Assembly: GCA_001839685.1 (NCBI GenBank)
Contig: MLAK01001093.1
Span: 36,908-100,907, forward strand
Direction of reading: 5' to 3'
Source of the DNA: Tritrichomonas foetus
Taxonomy: Eukaryota > Parabasalia > Tritrichomonadida > Tritrichomonadidae
Length of the DNA stretch: 64,000 nucleotides
The stretch's first letter is position 1; the number at the start of each line of letters is the position of its first letter. The notes beneath the pieces were generated by a model. It was not told the origin of the DNA and ran no database searches. It was given only the letters and a program-made list of their open reading frames with translations. Shown here piece by piece: positions 21,974 to 59,474 of this stretch. The position numbers and the translations under genes were made by a program.

Positions 21974-23449
21974 TCATGAAGACAAGTATTGATTTGCCTC
22001 ACATTTCTCCAAAAATATATTCAATTTTTCTTCTTCTTCCTTCTTCACGATTGATTCATCATTTCCCACTGCAATTTCAATTATGTCAACCCAGTCAAAT
22101 CGATTTTCTTTTGATTGCTTTTTAATTGTTGCTGTTGTTGCCCTTGTTGCTGGTTTTGAACGAAAATGAAAATTAGAAAGCTGATCAAGAAGCCTTACAG
22201 CTACTTCTTTTTCTTTCTCATTCCAGTGGTCGCATGCGACTTTCGCTGCTGGCATCAAAATATCTGAAATGCTGTCAGGCATTGGCTTATAAACGTTTAT
22301 GAAGTCATCATCTGTTACAAAATTTGTTGCAAGTAACGCAATTCTGAAGTTTTGTGAATATAAACAAGGTGCAATAATTTTTAAAACTAAAGGTCCCACT
22401 TTTTCAATTACTGTTGCAGGCTGGGTTGGCAAAAGCTCAAAAAATTGATGCAAAAACAGAATTTGCTTCGTAGTTGATGCTCTCGGCCAGTGACGCTTCA
22501 AATAATGGAGACACCAAAGTGCTGTTGCTGGTTCAAGTTTTTGGAAGAAATTTGAAAGACGATGAAGTGATTCTTCAAACAAGTAAGATAAATCTGTTGA
22601 AAAAAGTGGATAAAAAACCGTCCGAAATAACAAAAAGTTACTCTGCTTCAATGGAAGAGGAAGTGATCTGAAATAGTCAAGAAAGAGTCTCAATATTGGA
22701 GCCATTGATAACGTATAGGTATGAACGCCATCCAGATACAAAATCACACGGGATAGAAGATGCCTCAAAATGTTTGTACGATAGCCAACATAATTCTGTA
22801 AAATGAAAGCTAGCTCTTGTTCGATGATATTGGATTCATCATAAAATGGCGAATCGAGCTGTTGAACGAGTTTGAATGTAAAATCATCGTCTAGCATTGG
22901 CGCGCAACTTTCGATGTCTTGAAGTAGGATTTGAAAGATCTGATGGACGATTTCGATATGTTCCCAATTTTTGACAACGAAGTTCATGGGAACCTCTGAA
23001 AATTCATTTGGAGTTTGAAAAGTTGGAATTTTTCGAAAAATATGCGATTTAATGAATTCGAGTAATTCGATATATGTATTTGGCGAGATTGCGTTTCGTA
23101 ATACTGGATCGGAGATAATTGTATGAATAGTATTCAAAGTGTCCCTCTTTTTCTCTAAGGCTGGAATTGGCGGATGTGGAGCGAAATTCGTAGATATTTG
23201 AATAATCGGATAATCCATAAAATTGTGACATCTGTGAATTAAAGGCGTCAATTCGGCAACTATCTGTGCGTTTGGCGTTCGAGGTGGCGTCAGGTCGCCC
23301 AAATTGGGAAGTCTATCGGTTTGCCCATTTTTTGGGTTGGTTGTCGTCGGGCGACACGTACGGCAACCTTGTTTATTTTTGGGGATGACGATTGATGGGT
23401 TCTGGGTATGTCTGCTTCGACCAGATTTTGAATTGATCGAATTACCCAT
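21974..23449 (-). CDS. PP2A regulatory subunit B56 (B')
   Basis: A 491-residue HEAT-like protein. The B56 fold runs from about residue 85 to 415. Signature segments are WEHIEIVHQIFQILLQ (about 160-175), LDSPFYDESNIIEQELAFIL (about 198-217), YRTNILRHLLSRVILYL and KLEPATALWCLHYLKRHWPRASTTKQILFLHQFFELL. B56 subunits direct protein phosphatase 2A to substrates by binding LxxIxE-type motifs. The first 70 residues are basic and Ser/Thr/Pro-rich. They start MGNSINSK, so Gly2 could be N-myristoylated, an unusual feature for this subunit that would put the phosphatase at membranes. The family's typical length is 450-600. Confidence 0.9.
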   Translation of the reverse strand: MGNSINSKSGRSRHTQNPSIVIPKNKQGCRTCRPTTTNPKNGQTDRLPNLGDLTPPRTPNAQIVAELTPLIHRCHNFMDYPIIQISTNFAPHPPIPALEKKRDTLNTIHTIISDPVLRNAISPNTYIELLEFIKSHIFRKIPTFQTPNEFSEVPMNFVVKNWEHIEIVHQIFQILLQDIESCAPMLDDDFTFKLVQQLDSPFYDESNIIEQELAFILQNYVGYRTNILRHLLSRVILYLDGVHTYTLSMAPILRLFLDYFRSLPLPLKQSNFLLFRTVFYPLFSTDLSYLFEESLHRLSNFFQKLEPATALWCLHYLKRHWPRASTTKQILFLHQFFELLPTQPATVIEKVGPLVLKIIAPCLYSQNFRIALLATNFVTDDDFINVYKPMPDSISDILMPAAKVACDHWNEKEKEVAVRLLDQLSNFHFRSKPATRATTATIKKQSKENRFDWVDIIEIAVGNDESIVKKEEEEKLNIFLEKCEANQYLSS

Positions 23450-52599: not shown

Positions 52600-54177
52600 T
52601 TATTCTTCAACAGAATTAGAAAGGTGCCCAAATAGCTCAATATTGCTTAAGCTGATTGCTCCAGCATCGGTCTTACTGATTCTGATGTAACGATACGATT
52701 TTGTTGATAGACATGAATAGGAATGGAAAACGTATGAACTTGATAAATCTCGTGTGTTTCTTTCATCAAGTTTATCCCAACTTTTATCATCATTTGATCC
52801 TTCAATCATCCATTGATATAAATATCCATTATTTCCATCACTTGATTTTATTGTATAATAATCTAACGTGACTGCTTTTTGTCTAAAATCAAATTTTAAC
52901 CATCCCGTAATATCTCGTGAATTAGGGTGACCAACAGTGCAAGAATTGTTCGATGAATAGTTCACAATCGTATCATAATTCTTTTGACCTAAATAATTAT
53001 AAGTATGCACAATTTCTTTATTAATACAGTTGCCTTGACATTCTTTATTCAAGTGATTGAAAATTCCATTGAATGGCGAGGATGAATCAAATGAATAATA
53101 TTCGCCAAGATGTCGAGTGTAATGAAGATGGGGATCAATATGAAGTTTCAAGCGTTGGCATAAATGTTTCCAAATACTTACATTTAAATTTTCAAATTTA
53201 AAATGTTCAATAAAATGTTTCATTTTGGAATCACTCAAATATTCAAATTCTATATAAGATAGTAAAATTTCATAGTTCTTTCCAAGAGAAAAGATTAAAT
53301 CATATAACCAATTCTCACTCTTGATAACAAACTTGGGATGACTTAAAATACTTTCTAATATTTCTACAGATAGTTTGGAATATTTTTCTTTCTCCATTTC
53401 CGTAAAATGTGCTGCAATAAATTCAATTTCTTCTTCAATAGAAATATGACTTTGTGATAATAGATTTAATCGTTCAATTACATTTGTAGTTTTCATTTCT
53501 TCTCCTTCTTTGTTCAATTTACTGATTAATTCACTGTTTCCAATTTCAAGAGCAATATTCATTAACAGTTCTTTTTCTTCACTATTTTGTTTGATTTCAA
53601 TTTCCTTTCCTTTCATTAAACATATCATTTTATAAAAAACTTCATTAAGGAGATCTCCATCACATTTTTTATCGAGTTTTTCTTTTGAATTTTCATCTTG
53701 TTCTTTGGATTCTTCTTGTTCTGATGTGAATTCGTTTAATTTGTTCGCAGTTTCTTCTTCTTGATGAAGAAAATACTTTTTAAATTTGTTAACTGGATAA
53801 TATTTCAATTTAAACGTGTCGATCGTTGGATCTAACTTGAGTTGCTCGCACAGTTTTGGTGATAAGAAACAGGCAAGAAACTTTGGACATATATAAAAAA
53901 GATCATTGAAAACGAATGTAAAATCATTTTCTAATTTCACTACTTGTAGAGCTTTCTCTATCCCCGATGATAATAATTGGATACTCTTTGATTGATTTTT
54001 TGATATCTTATCACTTTTAGGATGAAGCATCAATTCATCTTCTGAGTGATCATTGGTGATGTGCTCTACTTTTATCTCTTGTTGGGTCATTGAATTTATT
54101 TTTACCTTTCTGTCTACATCATTTCGATCATAAATTGGCTGCACATGCTTTCTTGAGCGCATGAAAAGTTCTTCCAT
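52600..54177 (-). CDS. BTB protein with C-terminal F5/8 type C (discoidin-like) domain
   Basis: A 525-residue protein. A divergent BTB/POZ domain spans about 80-225 (DFTFVFNDLFYICPKFLACFLSP at its start), interrupted by a long acidic insert (about 140-170). A BACK-like helical region (about 240-350) follows. At about 365-520 is an F5/8C-type beta-sandwich: FNGIFNHL, GWLKFDFRQKAVTLDYYTIKS, YQWMIEGSNDDKSWDKLDER and YRYIRISKTDAGAISLSNIELFG. This combination is a large family in trichomonads. BTB-BACK proteins are usually adaptors for cullin-3 ubiquitin ligases; there is no signal peptide, so the C-terminal domain acts inside the cell. A cullin gene lies about 6.5 kb away, which may be chance. 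Confidence 0.88.
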   Translation of the reverse strand: MEELFMRSRKHVQPIYDRNDVDRKVKINSMTQQEIKVEHITNDHSEDELMLHPKSDKISKNQSKSIQLLSSGIEKALQVVKLENDFTFVFNDLFYICPKFLACFLSPKLCEQLKLDPTIDTFKLKYYPVNKFKKYFLHQEEETANKLNEFTSEQEESKEQDENSKEKLDKKCDGDLLNEVFYKMICLMKGKEIEIKQNSEEKELLMNIALEIGNSELISKLNKEGEEMKTTNVIERLNLLSQSHISIEEEIEFIAAHFTEMEKEKYSKLSVEILESILSHPKFVIKSENWLYDLIFSLGKNYEILLSYIEFEYLSDSKMKHFIEHFKFENLNVSIWKHLCQRLKLHIDPHLHYTRHLGEYYSFDSSSPFNGIFNHLNKECQGNCINKEIVHTYNYLGQKNYDTIVNYSSNNSCTVGHPNSRDITGWLKFDFRQKAVTLDYYTIKSSDGNNGYLYQWMIEGSNDDKSWDKLDERNTRDLSSSYVFHSYSCLSTKSYRYIRISKTDAGAISLSNIELFGHLSNSVEE

Positions 54178-54457: not shown

Positions 54458-55844
54458 TCATCTTCGCATGGTAAACTCGCGGAAAAGGGACAAAAGTTCA
54501 TCTGGAGACAATTCTGGTGCTCCTCCTGCTATATCTTGATTTTCCATTTTTGGAACTTCACCACCAAAGTCTCGCGTTGTTGCTTCATCAATTCTACGCA
54601 TCTGTTCTTTCGTTTCGTCTGGAATGTTTTGTATTGCATTATGTGCTTCTTCGTTTACACATTCTATTTGATGGAGCATATGCCAACAGAAAATTGATAG
54701 TATTACATTACTTCTCTCAATTATTTGATGTGATGCAAAAGGAATAATTTCACTTAAAACTTGACTACATAGCTGTGGATGATTTAAACATTGTTGAATA
54801 AGATTGAATACTTTAAAGTGAGCATTTGAATGATTTGGAAACCTTAAAAATATAGTTTTTGTGAGTTCACCAATATTAAATTCAACAAAATTATCTGCAA
54901 GTCGAGAACTAAGTGATAAAGCTTGAGCTAGAAACTCTAAGCATAGTGCTTGATAACGATAGAAAACTGGTGTTTGAGATCTCAAGTTTAAAATTGCTGT
55001 TGCAATCAAATTTGTCATAAACGGGAGAGAAGATTGATTACAAAGTATTAAGTAAAGTGACCATTGTGAAAAAAGAAGGTCGACTCTTTCAACTTGATAA
55101 TTTTTGATCAAAACTTGAATATTTTCTGGTTGTCTTAACACTTGACAAACTTCTTCTCTTAAAGCCAAAACTCGCATCAACCTGAACATTCCTATTGAAA
55201 AAACAACATCTCCATCTTTTTCAATTTTGTCCGGCAAATCTCGAATTTTCGAAATTGCAAGTGGAATAATGCCAGATTGAAAAAGAAATTGAATTAATTT
55301 TCCATCATCTTCTTTAATAGTGACGATAGATGCAAATAAATTCAAAACTGGGTGAAGTGAGCAATAAGGTAAGAATTTATCCAAGAAATTACACCATTCT
55401 GCGGTTTTTTCTGGAAATAAGGCGAAGCAAGAAACCAAAATAGATGAAAAGCGCGCCATCATTAAAAGGTTCGGCGGATTTTCGATATCTGAAAATATCT
55501 GGTTTGCTATTGTTTGAATTAATTCGGTTTGGAGGAGGCCGTTTATTAGGCTTCGATTATCAGTTGAGAAAAACCCACAGGCGCGCAAAGAAAGTGGCGA
55601 GTTTTCTGGTCGTAATGCGATATTAATCACACCTTTTATATTTTTCATTATACTGTTGTTAGAAAATAAACATACAAGTCAACCAATTCTATATTTCCTG
55701 CGCGAAAGCAGCGAACACAGGCTTCATCGTTGAGAATATCTTCGATCGAGGGATTCTCTTTGATTAATAACTGATGGATTGTTTCGGCGAATGGAACGGA
55801 AAATCTGGGATTAGAATAATTAAAAGATACTTCGAAGAAATCAT
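54458..55844 (-). CDS. SAPS-domain protein (PP6 regulatory subunit/SIT4-associated) with short intron(s)
   Basis: An alpha-solenoid protein of the SAPS family, which target the Sit4/PP6 phosphatase. The ATG at 55648 would give 396 residues but miss the conserved N-terminus, which is readable upstream in another frame: FAETIHQLLIKENPSIEDIL, then EACVRCFRAGNIELVD, the counterpart of the family's LL.KE..TLEELLDEDD, QECK..N.KLIDF. Removing the 23-nt intron at 55653-55675 joins these to IMKNIKGVINIAL in frame and gives the expected LVDF. The start is less sure: no ATG exists in the exon 1 frame. Removing a weaker 26-nt candidate intron (55805-55830) connects it to the ATG at 55842-55844 and yields MISSKF, comparable to the family's M-F-W-K-F. 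The model has exons 55831-55844, 55676-55804 and 54458-55652, 445 residues. The C-terminal tail is acidic. Confidence 0.8.
55653..55675 (-). other. Ultra-short spliceosomal intron, 23 nt
   Basis: On the minus strand it begins GTATGT and ends CTAACAACAG, with only TTATTTT between. This is the trichomonad pattern of GTAYGT and a fused branch-point/3' splice motif (CTAAC...AG). Removal restores the SAPS frame exactly at the conserved LVDF position. Confidence 0.82.
55805..55830 (-). other. Candidate second short intron, 26 nt
   Basis: Minus strand: begins GTATCT and ends CTAATCCCAG. Both ends differ from the consensus (C for G at position +5; CTAAT for CTAAC). It is proposed because its removal supplies an in-frame ATG and the conserved N-terminal K-F of the SAPS family; otherwise the exon has no ATG. 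Confidence 0.4.
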
Positions 55845-56477: not shown

Positions 56478-59474
56478 TTATTCAAATAAAGGTTTGAAAG
56501 ATGATGTATCCGTATTCTTGACTTTGCGTGGTCTTTTCTTTTGAACAATAGGAGCCATGTTTTTCTTCTTTTGTTTGGCTTTTGATTTTTTATCTTGAGC
56601 TTCATCACTTTTTGAACTACCTGCGATTACAGGAGTTGTTGTTGATCCAAGAACTTTCAGTGTCTCAAACAAGTTCATTGGTTTATGTGATGTAGGCTCA
56701 TCTTGTGCATTTTCTTCATTAGAATTATGTGTATTTGTTGGTTTTGATGAGCTTGGAACATCTTTAGCGTTTCTAACATAGACAACTTGATCTTCAGAGC
56801 TACTTCTTGATACAGAATGTTTTTTACGCAATTCTGAGGATGTTTCTCTTCGTATTGTAATAATTTTCCTTTGTGGTTTTCTAATTGTACCTGTGAGCTT
56901 ATCTGCAACAACAGAAGCATCTAAAGTGTCTGCATATTCAACAACAAATTGCCGAGCTTTTTTAGTTTTAATATTTTGAGCAATATGATATGCACGATAC
57001 TCTAAACCACTTTGAATTGCATTTGGAAACATTTTGAGTAACTCTGCATCACATTTATTCTTTTTGATATTGAAAGCGATCTGATTCATTAACCAAGGAC
57101 GAACTTCAGTATCTAATGTTAAAATATGTGTGTCAAGTGAATGAAGTTTTGGAATAGGATATGTTGCTGGACTTTTTTGACTTCGAAGTGGAACTCCATG
57201 GATAAGTCCATTTTCGGCTTTAACTACCCAATAATTATCAGTTGTTGTATCAAAATATTCCTTTAAGTCGAGTACTGGAATCCATTGCCATGAAAAATCT
57301 TTACTCAGGAAATGTACTAAATTCAAATGATCTTGAATAAAAACTTGATGTTTCTCATCAAAACCAATCCACTTGATAGGTTGATTTACAGAGACTACAC
57401 CTTCAATTAAAACTTTAGACTTTAAAACAGAAATAAGTCTGAAATTCAAATCTTTTCCAAATGGATATGCGTAGAATAAATATTTATCTCTTCCCACCAT
57501 TACAGTACAATTGTAAGGTAGAGAAATAATATCAATTTCAAGACCTGCTGATGTAAAAACACGAATACATGGTGCATCTGTAGCAACTGCAAACCATTCT
57601 TTACCACAAGCAATAAGTTGTGCTTTTTCATTTTGAAGGAAAATTGATGTTGTTTTATCTGGAGCCCATGATTTATGATGTTCATAAACAATATCAGAAT
57701 CAGATGCACCAATGAAGCCGTGCTCATCAATTGTAAAGAATTTAAACTGGTTAACATTGGGAATTTCTTTAGTTTTTCCATCAACCATTGTATGAATATC
57801 AATTTCTGTGGTTCCTTCTTCCTCTCTACGAAGAAGAGCTGCTGCATAATAATTCCAACATAAATATCTACGATTACCAACAAAGTGGTCATTGTTTCCA
57901 GGCATGAAAGGAAAAGTAAAATCGATAATGTCATCTTCATCTAAAATATCTTCTTCATCAGACATAGTACCAGATTCAAATATTCCTTCATTTTTCTCTT
58001 CTTCTTCTTCTTGCTTTGGATGAAGTTTTGCTCTTTGCTCAGGATCTAAATACTGTTCAAAATCAATTTCGTGGTCAGATGATGATTCTGATGGCAAAAA
58101 TACTGGTTCTGGTTCGGGCTCTGGTTCTGGAGCCATTTCTTTGAGTCGTGCTTCAAATTCTTCAGCTGGCTCAATAAAATCGGCAAGATCAGATTCATCT
58201 TCATCATCTGATATTTTTTCTCTTTGGATATATTTGTTAGAAACTAGTTTCTTTTGCTGTTTAGTTTTCTTTTGTTGTTTCTTTGGTTTCTTCGGTGGTG
58301 CTTTTTTCTTTGTTCCACCAGTTTTTTCTACTGTATTGTTCTCTTGATCACTTAAGTCCGATAACGAATCATCTTCATCTTCAACTTTCTTTTTACGAGG
58401 AACAACTGGTGCATTTAAAAAGTCGGTCAATGAATTTCCTTTCTTTTTATTAGATTTGTTACTAGATTCAAATGACTCATCATCATTTTGCTTAATTGGT
58501 TTTGGTGAATCAACAACATTTTCCCATATGTGAAGTTCTCCATTTTCATCACCAGCTGCTAATGAGCCAAATCCCCATGAAAGTGCTGTAATTCGTTCAC
58601 ATGGTTGCTCGACTGAAAATGTAAGAATAGAATATAATGTTTGTGGAGAGTCTGGATTTTCTGACAAATTAACACGCTTTCCATCATATTGAGAAATAAT
58701 AATTGTTCCGCTATCATCACATGTAGCAATATGATCAGTTGACAGTGAAGCAGCAACTGCAACGATGTTAGAATTATGTTTTTCATTTTGTAAAATAGCT
58801 TCTTTATTTCCATTTAAATGAGAAATAGAATGAATATCACCATCATCTAAAAAGAGAAGTTCTGATTTAAATGTAAAACATGGCAGGCAAAGTTTTCCAC
58901 TTTGCTTTATATTTCTTTGGAAAATAATTTCTTGAGTTTGACTATTAATTGCCGTTAAAATCAAACTATTTGATGAATCAATAGATAAGATATCAAGAGT
59001 GTCGCAAACTGGCCCAAAACCTATCCATTCAATTCGAGAGGAGTTCTCAAGAAAAGTCGATAAAACATCACAATGATCTCTGAATTTCTTTAATAAAATG
59101 ACTTTTGATTTATCTGCAATTGCAATCAAATCTTCGCTTGAAGTGGAACAAACGTGTTCAATAGAAGAATTGTGGGAAAATATTGTATTATGATTACCAC
59201 AATTTGGCCAACTGCATGATATTAATTCGGAATTGAGCGCTACTAAAAAAGTTGACGATTGTTGACAAAAGCAAAAAGAGAGAACTGGATTTCCTTCGAG
59301 GAAGTTTAAATTGTGAACTGATGAAATAGTTAAATTTTCGACATTGAAGCAGTTCAAAATATTATCATCTTTCCCGAGCGAAATTACGTCTTCACCTGTG
59401 AATGGATCAAATGATACTTGCTTGCACGAACCGAAGTGATTGTTAGTTTGTTTCCTTTCGCGAGGTAAATTCAT
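56478..59474 (-). CDS. AND-1/Ctf4/WDHD1-like replisome protein
   Basis: A 998-residue protein. Residues 1-330 form WD40 repeats (VSFDPFTGEDVISLGKDDNI, IVAVAASLSTDHIATCDDSG, ITALSWGFGSLAAGDENGELHIWEN). Residues about 335-520 are acidic and Lys/Glu-rich, with a run of Pro-Glu pairs. Residues about 530-820 match the SepB beta-propeller of AND-1/Ctf4: GNRRYLCWNYYAAALL, GKEWFAVATDAPCIRVFTSAG, IKWIGFDEKHQVFIQDHLNLVHFL, SWQWIPVLDLKEY and DNYWVVKAENGLIHGVPL. A helical part and a basic tail follow; no HMG box is seen. Ctf4 trimers link the CMG helicase to polymerase alpha and other factors at the fork and in cohesion. The length is near that of animal AND-1 (about 1100). Confidence 0.88.
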   Translation of the reverse strand: MNLPRERKQTNNHFGSCKQVSFDPFTGEDVISLGKDDNILNCFNVENLTISSVHNLNFLEGNPVLSFCFCQQSSTFLVALNSELISCSWPNCGNHNTIFSHNSSIEHVCSTSSEDLIAIADKSKVILLKKFRDHCDVLSTFLENSSRIEWIGFGPVCDTLDILSIDSSNSLILTAINSQTQEIIFQRNIKQSGKLCLPCFTFKSELLFLDDGDIHSISHLNGNKEAILQNEKHNSNIVAVAASLSTDHIATCDDSGTIIISQYDGKRVNLSENPDSPQTLYSILTFSVEQPCERITALSWGFGSLAAGDENGELHIWENVVDSPKPIKQNDDESFESSNKSNKKKGNSLTDFLNAPVVPRKKKVEDEDDSLSDLSDQENNTVEKTGGTKKKAPPKKPKKQQKKTKQQKKLVSNKYIQREKISDDEDESDLADFIEPAEEFEARLKEMAPEPEPEPEPVFLPSESSSDHEIDFEQYLDPEQRAKLHPKQEEEEEKNEGIFESGTMSDEEDILDEDDIIDFTFPFMPGNNDHFVGNRRYLCWNYYAAALLRREEEGTTEIDIHTMVDGKTKEIPNVNQFKFFTIDEHGFIGASDSDIVYEHHKSWAPDKTTSIFLQNEKAQLIACGKEWFAVATDAPCIRVFTSAGLEIDIISLPYNCTVMVGRDKYLFYAYPFGKDLNFRLISVLKSKVLIEGVVSVNQPIKWIGFDEKHQVFIQDHLNLVHFLSKDFSWQWIPVLDLKEYFDTTTDNYWVVKAENGLIHGVPLRSQKSPATYPIPKLHSLDTHILTLDTEVRPWLMNQIAFNIKKNKCDAELLKMFPNAIQSGLEYRAYHIAQNIKTKKARQFVVEYADTLDASVVADKLTGTIRKPQRKIITIRRETSSELRKKHSVSRSSSEDQVVYVRNAKDVPSSSKPTNTHNSNEENAQDEPTSHKPMNLFETLKVLGSTTTPVIAGSSKSDEAQDKKSKAKQKKKNMAPIVQKKRPRKVKNTDTSSFKPLFE

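Follow-up and report, generated by a model that had tools for sequence, protein, structure and literature searches.

Introduction

The closest described counterparts of the introns analysed here are the type B introns of Trichomonas vaginalis and T. stableri, types A and B having been defined by Wang (2018; PMC6260720). As given in the sections of Callejas-Hernandez (2025; PMC12316389) drawn on here, of the 63 active introns known in T. vaginalis, 24 belong to type B, three of these being 23 nt long. Among its Armadillo-type genes, six contain type B introns, which lie in the 5' UTR in two of them and are in phase 2 in the other four. The same sections report 23-nt introns in T. stableri, together with three genes that have two introns each. 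Type B introns are ~23–26 nt long with GT–AG ends and a T-rich middle, and TCTAA stands before the 3' site, the branch site being fused to the 3' splice site; the six shortest lack a base at -4. Most T. vaginalis cDNAs were found in both spliced and unspliced form (PMC12316389). Type A introns of T. vaginalis resemble those described below in the fused branch site and in having, at the 5' end, a conserved motif that extends over as many as seven nucleotides, but are 56–196 nt long (PMC12316389). The shortest introns elsewhere, as cited in the portion of PMC12316389 used, are those of Stentor (15 nt) and Bigelowiella (18 nt), which are likewise far under the usual minimum but belong to unrelated lineages and are shorter still.

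For Tritrichomonas foetus, a cattle parasite, the KV-1 annotation was produced by BRAKER, with OrthoDB proteins as the guide; in the gene statistics of that paper, no gene has more than two exons and introns average 175 nt (range 5–898; PMC11415386). According to the relevant passage of a review, early T. foetus drafts were annotated by a bacterial pipeline without introns (PMC12428144). The available portions of the Histomonas and T. musculus papers give introns in ~5–6% of genes and leave this class undescribed, and the word foetus is absent from the corresponding portion of Hudson (2019; PMC6679479). Ultra-short introns in Tritrichomonas were not reported in the titles and abstract openings of the open-licence PMC literature searched. 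The kind of intron is already known from Trichomonas; what is apparently new is that it occurs, and seems to be abundant, in Tritrichomonas, and that its position is deeply shared among paralogues.

Here we analyse a gene in a 64,000-nucleotide stretch of T. foetus DNA (the window). It is highly probable, on the sequence evidence set out below, that the segment 55675–55653 is a U2-type (GT–AG) ultra-short type B intron (intron 2) in a gene with a second such intron at 55830–55805 (intron 1), that the two together are removed to give a 445-residue protein, and that intron 2 is probably ancestral and was lost repeatedly.

Gene structure at the locus

The predicted structure is given in Table 1. 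An initial annotation had placed a single 23-nt intron at 55653..55675, and its letters, coordinates, strand and phase were confirmed: the minus strand reads GTATGTTTATTTTCTAACAACAG between the exon flanks ...TGGTTGACTT and TATAATGAAA, and the segment splits codon 48 after two bases in a frame ending E-L-V-D-(TT/T). With the segment retained, the upstream frame stops no more than nine codons from the junction codon. With it excised, the two frames are joined as claimed and the upstream frame reads on to the stop codon at 54458. A naive model starting at ATG 55648, with loss of the N-terminus, had also been foreseen; the unspliced ORF from this ATG encodes 396 residues, and the protein collection holds a 396-residue protein for this contig that equals it, so the naive model is the one in the collection.

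The initial annotation overlooked the upstream 26-nt segment, and the gene very probably has two ultra-short introns rather than one. The frame upstream of intron 2 is open from 55911 and contains no ATG. Within it lies 55830–55805 (GTATCT...TCTAATCCCAG), the architecture of which is like that of intron 2. Its removal joins the exon beginning at ATG 55844 to exon 2 in phase 2 (...TTTCTTCGAA to ATTTTCCGTT) and supplies a start codon to the ATG-less frame. The predicted spliced coding sequence (14 + 129 + 1195 nt) would encode 445 residues.

Table 1. Predicted features of the window gene (window positions) and introns of its intron-bearing paralogues
Feature	Position	Strand	Description
Exon 1	55831..55844	-	14 nt, ATG ATT TCT TCG AA; M-I-S-S and 2 nt of codon 5
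Intron 1	55805..55830	-	26 nt, phase 2, GTATCTTTTAATTATTCTAATCCCAG; predicted here, absent from the initial annotation
Exon 2	55676..55804	-	129 nt; ends N-I-E-L-V-D-(F)
Intron 2	55653..55675	-	23 nt, phase 2, GTATGTTTATTTTCTAACAACAG; predicted
Exon 3	54458..55652	-	1195 nt including the stop codon; ATG 55648 inside
L006 (C209)			Two introns, 23 and 24 nt
L007 (C724)			Two introns, 25 and 25 nt; GTAC donor in intron 1
L008			One intron, 24 nt
L011			One intron, 26 nt; GTAC donor
L030			One intron, 25 nt
L048			Intron of 26 nt; locus fetched for its motif

Splice-site motifs

Both segments have the GT...AG ends of U2-type introns within extended motifs, GTATGT...CTAACAACAG for intron 2 and GTATCT...CTAATCCCAG for intron 1, and their removal restores a conserved coding frame. 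The 3' motif of intron 2, TCTAACAACAG, contains TCTAA (CTAA preceded by T rather than A) fused to the 3' splice site behind a T-rich middle, as in type B introns; that of intron 1, TCTAATCCCAG, also contains TCTAA, and the lengths of 23 and 26 nt lie within the type B range. The 3' motif here is often TCTAAY-N2-CAG, which, with the different genus, distinguishes these introns from those of Trichomonas.

In the proposed mechanism, the donor of the predicted introns would be recognized at the U1/U6 site (GUAUGU or GUAUCU), followed by a spacer rich in T and then by UCUAAY-N2-CAG, in which branch site and 3' splice site are fused and the presumed branch adenosine is 6 nt from the 3' end. Donor site, spacer and fused branch site would fill the whole intron, so that the distance from the donor to the branch adenosine would be only 16 and 19 nt.

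Tests of the N-terminus

The spliced N-terminus was compared with a profile built exclusively from paralogues without detected introns, 20 in number. The doubly spliced protein aligned from residue 1 across both junctions with a best-domain score of 203.3 bits, whereas the ORF beginning at ATG 55648 reached a best-domain score of 172.5 bits. Exon 2 scored 12.1 bits in the predicted frame, the only frame past the inclusion threshold; one of the other frames scored -2.0 bits, below the threshold, and the other gave no report. It could be argued that the gene simply starts at ATG 55648, that the short protein is the product and that the upstream open frame is a chance occurrence or an old remnant, since the 396-residue ORF retains most of the profile score and is the form held in the protein collection. 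We regard this as highly unlikely: the upstream 48 residues alone match the intron-less profile with an E value of 4.3e-6 (12 test sequences searched), and an intron of the same class stands at the same site in six paralogues.

An intron 1 followed by a 129-nt exon 2, in phase 2, was found in three genes (the window gene, L006 and L007), and it occupies one column of a nine-row alignment, though not of the 32-row alignment, in which the first residues are gapped. Models of L006 and L007 without intron 1 score within 2.1 bits of models with it, and in L007 a 21-nt variant ties with the 25-nt version; intron 1 adds only about five residues, and the profile therefore hardly tests it. TCAYW is the consensus of the initiator element. 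A match to it lies 18 nt before ATG 55844 and occurs in one of five paralogues looked at; the same consensus was found in 10 of 37 spliced models, compared with 952 of 5000 random 30-mers.

Paralogue family and shared intron position

When the genome was searched with the spliced protein, 40 places matched at E ≤ 10, corresponding to ~37 loci including the window gene (two of the places are the window gene itself, and C993 and C966 each contributed a pair of pieces with one frame length). The loci cut out numbered 30, of which two were the window gene, and ~32 family members entered the alignment and tree. The family is large and divergent, with collected models of ~400–600 residues.

Intron 2 interrupts an F or Y codon, in phase 2 and in an identical column of the 32-row alignment, in seven genes: the window gene and the six paralogues of Table 1, in which it is 24–26 nt long. 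The six are 15.7–22.6% identical to the window protein, and among the seven genes 20 of 21 pairs are 12–23% identical, the remaining pair being 45% identical. Such sharing between divergent paralogues is a difference from the type B introns described in Trichomonas. In the tree of 32 rows the window gene, L006, L007 and L008 form a supported group, and the distribution of intron 2 over the seven genes requires at least four changes. Repeated insertion into the same codon would also produce this distribution; the simplest reading of the alignment and tree is one ancestral intron 2 with several losses, and intron 2 would then probably have been present in the ancestor of the family.

No working intron 2 was detected in 25 of the 32 rows, L031 being counted among them. 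At position 743 of L031 (C628:31014) there is a 28-nt intron-like sequence, seemingly at the conserved site, the splicing of which gives an immediate stop at the junction codon; this locus is possibly a decaying copy, or possibly uses another splice site.

Splicing of intron 2, which we take to be constitutive, might instead be inefficient and regulatory, with retention of the 23 nt tuning the protein level by ending translation within nine codons of the junction. The early stop in the retained frame and the coexistence of spliced and unspliced forms for most T. vaginalis cDNAs (PMC12316389) are consistent with such a role. It is nevertheless unlikely, because unspliced RNA may be plain precursor and because in most rows of the family no working intron 2 was detected.

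Searches with the window protein among 5.8 billion proteins returned the window's own protein as the sole match. A search of proteins with the nine-row alignment added one named T. foetus protein, hypothetical protein TRFO_28079, which agrees with the L014 product in length and in its N-terminal letters.

A genome-wide class of predicted ultra-short introns

Motif searches were performed on the 63.7-Mb genome, a draft of 1064 contigs, with the reversed genome as control. This genome encodes an IMPDH that agrees with PDB 1ak5, the T. foetus enzyme, at 503 of 503 residues. The strict pattern GTATGT-N0-12-CTAACAACAG gave two matches (control one); the match other than intron 2, in C79, also bridges two frames. 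The exact 3' motif TCTAACAACAG behind a nearby GTRY gave nine matches (control seven), so that motif matches without a frame test were not counted as introns and the case for intron 2 rests on frame restoration and conservation rather than on the motif alone.

The pattern GTAT-N6-16-TCTAAY-N2-3-CAG gave 167 matches (control 34), and GTAT-N6-13-TCTAAY-N2-3-CAG gave 151 (control 27), of which 58 were C type (control 15) and 93 T type (control 12). One repeated sequence accounts for 37 of the T-type matches, leaving 114 non-repeat matches. The motif excess (151 - 37 - 27 = 87) suggests ~80–90 introns with GTAT donors. The corresponding patterns with GTAC (22 matches, control 22) and GTTT donors (74, control 78) showed no excess in the genome, although two GTAC sites, intron 1 of L007 and intron 2 of L011, are supported by position despite the null count.

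The repeated sequence, GTATATTTAATTTCTAATTTCAG, is intron-like and present in 37 identical copies (e.g. C30:39805-39827 and C195:64156-64178), perhaps within a repeated element; two distinct copies, of three fetched, were reported without frame bridging.

A site was scored as bridging when an ATG-started frame was joined to at least 60 codons and the unspliced reading ended within 25 codons. The test covered 63 distinct motif sites in 58 fetched loci, comprising nearly all C-type matches and only part of the T-type matches. Frames were bridged at 31 of the 63 sites, compared with 136 of 3713 other GT..AG segments of 22–28 nt in the same loci (Fisher p = 1.7e-26) and eight of 253 GTAT..AG segments there (Fisher p = 2.7e-18). 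Candidates were picked by motif and controls by position, so these figures show that the class is real rather than its exact size. Passing lengths were 23 (10 sites), 24 (4), 25 (11), 26 (5) and 28 nt (1), and none of five motif sites of 21–22 nt passed. A test for one intron can overlook genes with two, and some of the 32 failing sites are located in candidate genes of that kind. Under a looser test over 96 loci, 37 of 74 sites passed. Compared with the 24 type B introns of T. vaginalis, there are apparently more sites here (114 non-repeat matches, with 31 of the 63 tested bridging frames). Two U2 snRNA genes scored over the Rfam cut-off (~81 bits), in keeping with a spliceosomal mode of removal.

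A base-calling or assembly error creating a false frameshift, the event named in the initial annotation as a refutation, would dispose of intron 2 altogether; the genome is a draft, and the initial annotation alone could not exclude such an error. It would not, however, place GTAT...TCTAAY..CAG at the break, recur, with differing lengths and letters, at the identical codon and phase of six paralogues, or recur at 31 of 63 sites genome-wide, and we consider it exceedingly improbable. The ultra-short spliceosomal nature of 55675–55653, as first proposed, is strongly supported by the shared column and phase, the profile test of the N-terminus and the genome-wide frame-bridging class.

Ten spliced proteins with recognizable folds, picked by eye from 12, were scanned against Pfam, and all ten matched at E ≤ 0.001. 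The best stretch crosses a junction in six (two Arf-like proteins, a histone-fold protein with an E value of 1.8e-4, a cyclophilin, an RRM protein and Tctex-1), begins at the junction in two (Rab-like) and lies outside it in two (EF-hand and chromo). One Arf-like gene (L040) requires two 24-nt introns, and in the C79 protein kinase a PH domain is completed across a 25-nt intron (Pfam PH, 2.3e-12).

Further candidates were noted. In the window, a 26-nt segment on the minus strand, 23541-23516 (GTTTCGTTTTATTTTTCTAATTCCAG, phase 0), is a third candidate for an ultra-short intron, with an alternative GTAG donor 3 nt upstream; it lies just before a PP2A B56 gene (21974-23449) and would join a short ATG exon to 513 open codons. 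Locus L050 (C124:21582-21603) has a possible 22-nt intron, GTATTTTCATTCTAACACACAG, in phase 0, with 76 open codons before it (no ATG) and 314 after; if real, it would be under the 23-nt minimum of PMC12316389. Locus L053 has three motif matches within 260 bases of one strand (C169:19794, 19828 and 20016).

Implications for Tritrichomonas genes

With dozens of candidates in the genome, and precedents in T. vaginalis and T. stableri, which bear out the statement in the initial annotation that very short introns occur in T. vaginalis, the 23-nt intron is no isolated oddity. We lean, by a small margin of confidence, towards the view that T. foetus has an expanded class of 23–28-nt introns (~80–90 with GTAT donors, which is severalfold more than the type B introns of T. 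vaginalis), some of them in two-intron genes, and that some positions predate paralogues now ~20% identical. Some may perhaps predate the split from Trichomonas, since Armadillo-type genes there have type B introns in phase 2. If so, introns close to what is physically possible for a spliceosome would be a stable ancestral state of trichomonads, not a late oddity, and the class has probably been largely missed by published Tritrichomonas annotations. How a spliceosome would fit a donor and a branch point 16 nt apart in a 23-nt intron is a mechanical puzzle, and the same-codon intron in seven paralogues, ranging from 23 to 26 nt, offers a natural set of sizes on which the minimum could be tested.

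The dozens of candidates also suggest that gene models of T. foetus are in many cases split or lack their true N-termini, among them models for dynein light chains, for small GTPases and for a kinase with a PH domain; the average intron is 175 nt in one annotation, and an intron-free bacterial pipeline is described for the early drafts.

The encoded protein and neighbouring genes

The assignment of the gene to the SAPS family fared less well than the intron. The window protein matched no Pfam family at E ≤ 1, and nine family members scanned against Pfam gave no SAPS match at E ≤ 1. A genome search with PF04499 (SAPS/SIT4-associated proteins) gave no match above the curated cut-off, only L003 and L004 below it. 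The L003 match, to the C-terminal part of the profile (21.9 bits, cut-off 25.6 bits, E 9.5e-5), is what stands of the assignment, and the protein is perhaps distantly related to SAPS.

A search of PDB sequences gave no match at E ≤ 1. A low-confidence structure model of residues 50–445 (the 396-residue form), made from a two-row alignment, is all-helical with a mean pLDDT of 60. One PDB structure matched this model at E ≤ 0.001, a cilia doublet-microtubule chain; the next matches, with weaker E values and large r.m.s.d., were designed armadillo repeats, β-catenin and others. The protein may thus be of a divergent armadillo type. Genes with Armadillo-type folds are among those with type B introns in T. 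vaginalis, and two-intron genes are known from T. stableri.

The gene is flanked on the same strand by a Ctf4/Mcl1 (WDHD1-like) replication protein at 56478-59474 and, at 52600-54177, by a protein whose match to an F5/8 type C domain is slightly under the cut-off.
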